A stretch of 64,000 nucleotides of DNA from Bacteroidota bacterium (GTDB lineage Bacteria; Bacteroidota; Bacteroidia; Chitinophagales; LD1). A program made the position numbers and the translations under genes. A model generated the notes under the pieces. It was not told where the DNA came from and searched no databases. It was given only the letters and a program-made list of their open reading frames with translations. How positions within the stretch are numbered: position 1 is the stretch's first letter; every line of letters starts with the position of its first letter. This document shows, one piece after another, positions 36,985 through 42,825 of this stretch. The DNA lies in assembly GCA_018267365.1 (NCBI GenBank), contig JAFDYQ010000003.1:124001-188000 (forward strand), given 5' to 3'.

Positions 36985-39900
36985 ATGAAGAAGTTCCTAC
37001 TACTCTCTGTAGCAGTTTTTTCTATTTTCAGCACATGGGCGCAGCAGCGTACCTGCGGTACTATGGCACATGAGCAGCAGCTAATGCTGAGTGATCCTCA
37101 CTATAGTGCACACAGACAGGATATAGACCGGTTTGCACAGAGTTTTCAGATGTCACACAATGGTCAGCGTACGGTGATCACTATACCGGTGGTAGTACAC
37201 GTAATATACCATGACTCTGCCGGCAATATCAGTATGGCGCAGATACAATCTCAGATAGACCGCCTGAACCTGGACTACCACAAGTCGAACCCGGACACGG
37301 CCAGTGTACCTGCGCCGTGGAAGAGCCGGGTAGCTGACTGCAATATCCAGTTTTGTCTGGCGCAACGTACACCTACCGGAGCGGCTACCAATGGCGTGGT
37401 GAGAAAGCGTATCAATACCGCTACCTCGTGGACCACAGATGACAAAGTAAAATACACCAGTCAGGGCGGCGATGATGCCTGGCCGGCGTCATCCTACCTC
37501 AACCTGTGGGTCTGCGACCTGGGTAATAGCCTGCTGGGCTATGCACAGTTTCCCGGCGGAACGGCAGCCACTGATGGTGTGGTGATACTCAATACTGCTT
37601 TTGGCAGTGTGGGTTCTGCTACCGGTGCTCCCTACAACAAGGGCAGGACGGCCACGCATGAAGTGGGTCACTGGCTGAACCTGTACCATATCTGGGGCGA
37701 TGACAATGGGGCCTGTACGGGTACAGATCAGGTAGGTGATACACCCAATCAAGGTAACATGCACTACGGATGCCCTCCGTTTCCTAGTGTATCGTGTAGC
37801 AATGGCCCCGATGGTGATATGTTCATGAACTACATGGATTATACGGATGATGCCTGTATGTATATGTTTACCAATGGGCAGAATACGCGTATACAGGCAA
37901 ACTTTGCCACGGGAGGAGCTCGGGCATCGCTGCTCAATTCGCAAGGTTGTGTACCTCCATCCGGAGGCCCTGTCACGGCTTTCACTGCCAATAAAACTAC
38001 TATCTGCGTAGGCCAGTCTATCAACTTTACAGATCAGACTACCGGTAGCCCGACAGCCTGGAGCTGGTCGTTTCCGGGAGCAGCTACTACCACATCTACC
38101 ACCCAGAATCCTCAGAACATAGTCTATAACACAGCCGGTACCTACTCAGTGACGCTCACTGCTAGCAACGCAGGTGGCTCTACACCACTGACACGTACCA
38201 ACTATATCACTGTGCTGGGTACTACACCACTGCCTCTGAAGGAGGGTTTTGAGAGTACTACATTCCCACCGACAGGCTGGTCTCTGGGCAATCCTGATGC
38301 CGGTACTACCTGGGTACGGACTACCAGCGCGAGTGGCTTTGGCCAGTCTACGGCGTGTGCTTTCATGGATAACTATAATTATAACGGTGCGGGCCAGAAG
38401 GACTATCTCTACTCTCCGGTATACAGCTTCACACGTGGTATCAATGCCACCTCTAAGCTTAAGTTTGACTATGCCTATGCCTTGTACAACGCTACCAGCA
38501 CGGATAGCTTCCAGGTCTTGATCTCTACCGACTGCGGTACGACATGGACCTCTCTCTGGAAGAAAGGCGGCACTCAATTGCGCACCAACGGCTCCTCGTA
38601 TACTACCAGCCAGTTCGTACCGACTGCCACTCAGTGGGTACGGGACTCTACTGTCAGCCTGGCGTCATACGCGGGCATGACATCCGTGCAGTTTGCCTTT
38701 GTCAATATCAATAAGTATGGTCAGTCGCTCCTGCTCGATAATATCAATATAGATACGGTAGCTAGTACCGGCGGCTGTACCAGGCCGGTTGCCTCTTTTG
38801 TAGCATCTCCTACCACTGTGACGCAGGGTAGTACAGTGAGCTATACCGATCAATCCACTAACAGTCCTACCGCCTGGGCATGGACCTTTGGTGGCGGTAC
38901 TCCGGCTGCGTCTACTGTGCAGGCACCGGGAGCCATCACATACAGCACAGTAGGTACATATACTACCAAGCTGAGAGTGACCAATGCCTGCGGATCTGAC
39001 TCTACTACTGTGACCATCACTGTAGTACCGGCTAGTACGCAGTCAGGCTGTGATACGCTGTCGCACCTCTTGGCCAATGACTCCCTGCGCGTCTATGGTG
39101 ATGGCAACTCTACATGGGGTGTGATAGCAGGTACTAATAGCTATCATGACCTGGCCAAAGCAGAAAAGTATACCAATATCAATGGCCGTCCTATCAACTC
39201 TGTCCTGCTGGGCTTCGTATACGCCAGATCTGCTGGCACTACAGACTCTGTGACCATCAATATATGGGATGCAAACGGTACCAACGGCCTGCCCGGCACC
39301 GTGCTCGGCACAGCCAAGGTGGCTATGAGTACGGTGATGACCAATGTGGCTAACGGCCGCTTCACTCAAGCTTCCTTCTCCTGTCCGGTAGCCACTAACA
39401 GTACTTTCTACGTAGGCTTTAATATCAACTACCTGGCGGGGGATACTATATGGATGGGTACTACATCATATTTCAATAATGCCAATCACGCCTATCAAGG
39501 CTATGAATTGAACTACATAAACGCTACTACCAGCCAGTGGGCTGCAGTAGATAGTGATTGGTTTCCGTTCAGTTATTATATCTTACCGGTACAGTGTACT
39601 CAGACCGCTCCTGCTGCGGCCTTTACTGCAAACAGAACGTCCCTGTGTATCGGAGACTCGGTACGCTTCACGGACCAGTCTACCGGCTGCCCTACAGGAT
39701 GGTCATGGCAGGTGACGGGGCCTGTCAATATGGTGTCATCTGTCAAGAACCCGACATTTACTTTCACCACTGCGGGCACCTACTCGGTGACGCTGACAGC
39801 GTCTAACGCCGGCGGCAATAACGCACATACACAAACGTCTTACATCACAGTGCGCCCTGCGCCTACAGCGTCAATGAGCAGTGTGGCGGTGAACTGCTAC

Positions 39901-42825: not shown

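Follow-up and report, generated by a model that had tools for sequence, protein, structure and literature searches.

The window, by which we mean the whole 64,000-nucleotide stretch of DNA analysed here, contains an open reading frame encoding 1946 residues, in which Pfam and NCBIfam recognise, from the N terminus onwards, a Peptidase_M43 domain, PKD domains, SprB repeats and a type A sorting tail of the type IX secretion system (T9SS) (Table 1). The M43 profile PF05572 scores 48.5 bits on this protein (cut-off 23), and the catalytic domain matches solved structures in the PDB, with ulilysin at 2.6e-99 and mirolysin at 9.3e-85. M43 proteases of the pappalysin type share the zinc-binding consensus HEXXHXX[GN]XXH and a Met-turn; in addition to its homology to solved members, the window protein has both, as HEVGHWLNLYH at residue 225 and a Met-turn region, MNYMDY, at residue 281. 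Cys24, invariant across six orthologues, lies at the cysteine-switch position and is, by that position, a putative cysteine switch; in mirolysin the switch is Cys23 (PMC8259862).

The SprB repeat profile PF13573 reaches 150.5 bits against a curated cut-off of 28, with six stretches passing it singly. The same genome encodes SprA and at least 150 type A sorting tails, so that the two marks of a type A T9SS cargo, a C-terminal sorting domain and an SprA translocon in the genome, are both present. Taken together, the M43 domain, the SprB repeats, the type A tail and SprA point to a secreted protease with a repeat stalk. Two further M43 proteases of like kind are encoded in this genome (G000:C15:48192-49973 and G000:C22:96378-97352) and match the N-terminal part of the window protein only, with 60% and 59% identity, respectively. 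Downstream of the gene, positions 43219-50800 hold a DUF4465 T9SS protein, a second T9SS cargo, a TonB-type receptor, DUF5074, a periplasmic binding protein and FecCD, a run suggestive of an operon for taking up a cofactor or an iron compound.

Table 1. Features of the gene and units of its repeat array, with positions in the window.
Feature	Residues	Positions	Strand	Basis
Whole gene, M43 metalloprotease with SprB-repeat stalk and T9SS type A tail		36985..42825	+	Pfam, NCBIfam
Pro-segment and catalytic domain, ulilysin/mirolysin-like	19-317	37039..37935	+	PF05572, PDB matches, motifs
PKD domain 1	334-403	37984..38193	+	Pfam
PKD domain 2	599-680	38779..39024	+	Pfam
Orthologue-specific domain	681-870	39025..39594	+	served to recognise orthologues
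PKD domain 3	875-956	39607..39852	+	three PKD stretches in Pfam; position by alignment to PKD 1 and 2
SprB unit 1, type A, block 1		39862..40089	+	identities, unit trees
SprB unit 2, type B, block 1		40090..40317	+	identities, unit trees
SprB unit 3, type C, block 1		40318..40539	+	identities, unit trees
SprB unit 4, type A, block 2		40540..40761	+	identities, unit trees
SprB unit 5, type B, block 2		40762..40986	+	identities, unit trees
SprB unit 6, type C, block 2		40987..41205	+	identities, unit trees
SprB unit 7, type A, block 3		41206..41436	+	identities, unit trees
SprB unit 8, type B, block 3		41437..41661	+	identities, unit trees
SprB unit 9, type C, block 3		41662..41880	+	identities, unit trees
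SprB unit 10, A-like motifs (CHGG, EP end), outside A clade		41881..42105	+	motifs, unit trees
SprB unit 11, type B		42106..42330	+	unit trees
SprB unit 12, terminal cap, not type C		42331..42546	+	cysteine pattern; counterpart is the last unit of every orthologue
T9SS type A C-terminal sorting domain	1870-1946	42592..42822	+	PF18962, TIGR04183

Because a full-length alignment search retrieved mostly other M43 genes, orthologues were drawn from a genome search and recognised by the orthologue-specific domain of Table 1. The sample covers all four genera of the family and includes one orthologue from another family of the order. Two genomes of the same genus, G002 and G003, yielded no orthologue of the window gene; that of G003 is 73% complete.

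The units themselves are predicted to be Ig-like β-sandwiches. An AlphaFold2 model of units 4-9, built on 19 aligned sequences, is all β, with a mean pLDDT of 89.6 and a pTM of 0.46, the latter implying that the geometry between units is not fixed, with which large r.m.s.d. values (9-15 Å) agree. Its best PDB matches are fragments of GhpA, the grappling hook protein A of Aureispira sp. CCB-QB1 (Foldseek 2.1e-18; Z 12.8 over 427 residues). GhpA is also the best match by sequence profile (1.1e-22), and a PDB search with units 4-9 as a single sequence returned no match. By fold and by profile, GhpA thus provides the closest solved structures to the repeat, although it is a separate protein of 5898 residues that has been solved in parts.

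Unit types, their order and the last unit

The SprB array spans residues 960-1854 (39862-42546) and comprises twelve units of 72-77 residues, in keeping with the first-pass annotation, which had described twelve repeats of about 74 residues at 39862-42550. The three types that it told apart by their ends are likewise recovered: A units end in QP, GP or EP, B units in Q, and C units in residues rich in G, S, T and N. Units 5 and 8 carry the internal motif that it gave for B, ICTTAGTATVTG, unaltered; unit 11 has the changed form ICTTQGTATASG, and unit 2, also a B, lacks it.

Mean amino-acid identity between units three apart is 55.6%, against 40.5, 40.5, 43.4 and 42.3% at lags 1, 2, 4 and 5, and identity within types exceeds that between types by 9.2 points, a difference matched by 4 of 20,000 label shuffles for protein and 8 of 20,000 for codons. 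For 49 units taken from four species of the genus, a tree groups A units 1, 4 and 7 (72/90), B units 2, 5, 8 and 11 (86/83) and C units 3, 6 and 9 (99/97), the support for A and B being moderate on 72 alignment columns. Blocks 2 and 3 are sister-paired for B and C, and not for A. Units 1-9 and 11 have the make-up of a higher-order repeat of period 3. At the DNA level, the super-repeat of about 670 bases that had been proposed is faint, even though it is clear in protein: the blocks are 56-66% identical in gapped alignment, barely more than blocks taken out of phase, and exact repeats within the array reach 20 bp at most. Tandem Repeats Finder, whose longest period is 500, reported no repeat.

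Units 10 and 12 fall outside the A and C clades in the trees. Of the strict A-B-C order repeated four times that had been read from the sequence, three clean blocks remain in units 1-9, with unit 11 a B; unit 10 is A-like by its motifs, and unit 12 is, by its cysteines, a terminal cap. The predicted groups 1,4,7,10 and 3,6,9,12 were not recovered. The A-B-C order and the copying of blocks are real, and the strict fourfold pattern probably is not.

The cysteines set the last unit apart. Units 1-11 each carry two conserved cysteines, the first at position 12 or 13, which probably form a disulfide within the unit. Unit 12 also has two, but its first conserved cysteine is gone and a new one has appeared at position 54, eight residues before the second (YTCTITDMFGC). 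Across 20 orthologues, all 139 inner units have the first cysteine and none of the 20 terminal units does, and the YxC..GC form is found in 7 of 1509 units, six of which close the array of this gene in genera g1 and g4. Unit 12 shares its cysteine pattern with the last units of the orthologues and is therefore a terminal unit, not a C.

This also bears on the alternative that the order is strictly fourfold and that units 10 and 12 are diverged members of A and C. The A-like motifs of unit 10 speak for it, and constraining unit 10 with A or unit 12 with C costs 1.47 log-likelihood units and is not rejected (AU p 0.25). However, in a tree of 122 units, unit 10 groups with distal units of genus g4 (90/88), the altered cysteines of unit 12 recur in the terminal units of the g4 orthologues, and the first cysteine is absent from the terminal unit of every orthologue. 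We consider this alternative improbable.

The same cysteine is lost well beyond this gene. In a first set of arrays, it is present in 8 of 47 terminal units followed by a tail of 60-140 residues (8 of 27 when the orthologues are left out) and in 60 of 61 with no such tail, the latter being arrays followed by other domains or ended by a contig cut; 44 of the 48 such tails scanned match Por_Secre_tail. A second set drew on other families of the class (40 regions) and was picked before its terminal units had been seen; there, the cysteine is present in 3 of 11 terminal units directly followed by a type A tail and in 30 of 31 otherwise (Fisher 1.2e-5, a p-value that, like others of its kind, overstates the independent evidence, as cassettes of last unit plus tail may share descent). 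Two extra arrays of this set end in 60-140 residues of a different kind, and both lack the cysteine (0/2). The two sets differ in how the terminal units were classed, by tail length in the first and, in the second, by a profile made from the tails of the first. Terminal units before type A tails (for example, L104, L183, L242, L262 and L272) have mostly lost the first cysteine and kept the second, and some of them have a new cysteine about eight residues ahead of the second.

Tentatively, and with somewhat less than even confidence, we read this pattern of residues as a specialised last unit that would have no usual disulfide, or a free or re-paired thiol, and that would serve as an adaptor between stalk and sorting domain, expansion being confined to the units that precede it. 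In RgpB, the Ig-like domain preceding the C-terminal domain (CTD) has been proposed to act as a spacer or insulator (PMC4804311), and by analogy the SprB cap may be its counterpart.

Origin and age of the blocks

Orthologues across the family have 4, 5, 7, 8, 10, 11, 12 or 13 units. In the tree of 122 units, which come from 15 orthologues, the A units of the window gene group with the first units of other genera (92/88), its C units with their third units (92/88) and its B units (2, 5, 8 and 11) with their second units, the last with weaker support. As A, B and C match units 1, 2 and 3 of other genera, the trio predates its copying, which took place en bloc within this genus. The earlier proposal that blocks of three, not single units, were duplicated is thereby supported, with A, B and C corresponding to the first, second and third repeats of outgroup genera. 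Block copying also predicts the longest ungapped DNA similarity in the array, 300 nt at 69% identity, which runs across the unit boundary from B5-C6 to B8-C9 at a spacing of 675. With the block signal nearly lost in DNA, the route of duplication is not readable from breakpoints.

Multi-unit order is also found in other SprB arrays. We surveyed 93 arrays, each with seven or more units and most of them from the same order, which had been selected for their similarity to the window protein or for a high SprB score; 12 are periodic at P <= 0.001: three congeners of the window gene, five others of period 3 and four of period 2. In the second set, 4 of 36 arrays are periodic, with period 2 or 4. Chance would give fewer than one over all 129 arrays, with up to five periods tested per array; given the selection by similarity or score, and as several of the giant period-3 arrays are perhaps one gene family, these frequencies are not unbiased. 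Most arrays have no period at all, and a period-3 order universal to SprB arrays is rejected. The unit types of the other period-3 arrays differ from A, B and C of the window gene, which suggests that multi-unit order arose more than once, and the occurrence of periods 2, 3 and 4 suggests that block copying is probably a normal growth route of such stalks.

One of these arrays, L203:3449-12577 (G013), is a young three-unit higher-order repeat in which block copying is seen directly: units three apart are 80% identical in protein and 83% identical in DNA (94% at best), and a 77-bp exact repeat recurs 681 bp apart. Four giant arrays of 25-34 units from other genera (L237, L189, L198 and L213) have period-3 order and possibly form one gene family. 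The 8-unit orthologues of the window gene have a weak lag-4 order (P 0.02-0.07). In L216:2865-9206 (G046), which has period 2, units that lack the first cysteine alternate with units having two early cysteines (for example, CPTLC), as if disulfides joined neighbouring units. In the literature searched, which did not extend to subscription journals, where it may have been noticed earlier, we found no description of unit order in SprB repeats.

A different history, in which units were copied singly and selection for the fit between neighbours set the A-B-C order, would account for the single extra A unit in the congener G006 and could also underlie the period-2 and period-4 orders of other arrays. 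It would, however, require at least six separate copies to land in order, and it sits poorly with types that already match ancestral units 1-3 and with a similarity that crosses a unit boundary. The whole-block copies visible in L203 refute it for that array, not for the window gene, for which we regard it as unlikely.

The copying of blocks is, judged from sequence divergence, older than the species sampled. Units of the same type within the window gene differ by a dS of 1.3 to saturation and a dN of 0.17-0.60, and units at the same position in the congeners G004 and G005 by a dN of 0.02-0.15; since synonymous sites are far diverged between species too, this comparison rests on dN, not dS. 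In G001, G004 and G005, the array consists of 12 units in register, with 78-97% identity per unit, which argues against an assembly artefact. The array of G006 has 13 units, the extra A standing after unit 4, so that single units are gained or lost as well. In that species, units 6 and 9, both B units (of blocks 2 and 3), cluster at 98/92, which hints at later copying, conversion or exchange in its lineage.

Nothing points to an ongoing change in block number. The suggestion that the array is a site of length variation by recombination finds no support at the level of the genus, where three species have their 12 units in register and synonymous sites are nearly saturated, and the sole change seen, in G006, is one unit and not a block, within a family range of 4 to 13 units. 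That family range, and the clustered B units of G006, are what an active recombination site with block numbers differing among strains could draw on; set against three congeners with exactly 12 units of such identity, near-saturated synonymous sites and the lack of any exact repeat above 20 bp, it is very unlikely.

A protease stalk among known systems

In our assessment, it is highly probable that the array is the stalk of a T9SS-exported M43 protease and that its A-B-C order is a higher-order repeat, an ancestral trio having been copied as a block in the genus. On this reading, the protein is a cell-surface or secreted metalloprotease of the ulilysin/mirolysin/cytophagalysin type that leaves the cell via the T9SS. 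In the ancestral gene, A, B and C already differed from one another as units 1-3 of the stalk; copying of this trio as a block within the genus produced units 1-9, after which come the A-like unit 10, the B unit 11 and the terminal cap. The duplication may have proceeded by unequal crossing-over or by slipped pairing of units, and the stalk may serve to keep the protease at a distance from the cell surface.

Blocks of several distinct units whose types recur at a fixed period are familiar from the Ig super-repeats of titin and from alpha-satellite DNA. Compared with those higher-order repeats, the one described here lies in a bacterial T9SS cargo, has a period of three units, and is old and fixed. 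Among proteases, the lower pappalysins of family M43, cytophagalysin CPL1 and mirolysin/ulilysin, resemble the window protein in having a pro-segment, a metzincin catalytic domain and Ig-like domains. CPL1 is described with eight Ig-like domains and a C-terminal domain resembling a T9SS CTD, and SprB is mentioned nowhere in the text that describes it (PMC11674741); relative to CPL1, the window protein adds twelve SprB units.

SprB of Flavobacterium johnsoniae, from which the repeat takes its name, is exported by the T9SS like the window protein, and has a type B CTD, an alternative carrier and no use of PorV (PMC10994853). The window protein differs in its protease domain and its type A tail. 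The first-pass annotation had suggested that the three-unit block could be the structural unit of an adhesin; that the protein is an SprB-type gliding adhesin is extremely unlikely, because, for all its twelve well-scoring SprB units, an M43 protease with PKD domains makes up the N-terminal half of the protein and its tail matches the type A profiles PF18962 and TIGR04183 in place of the type B sorting domain of that adhesin.

Many-domain stalks are common in Bacteroidota and are poorly described. Here, the history of one of them can be read, with three distinct ancestral units copied jointly and then fixed across species; as an example of a pattern seen repeatedly in SprB stalks, it is well resolved. 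The rule for the terminal unit is the part most worth pursuing, as it provides a testable lead on how a repeat stalk is joined to a T9SS sorting domain.
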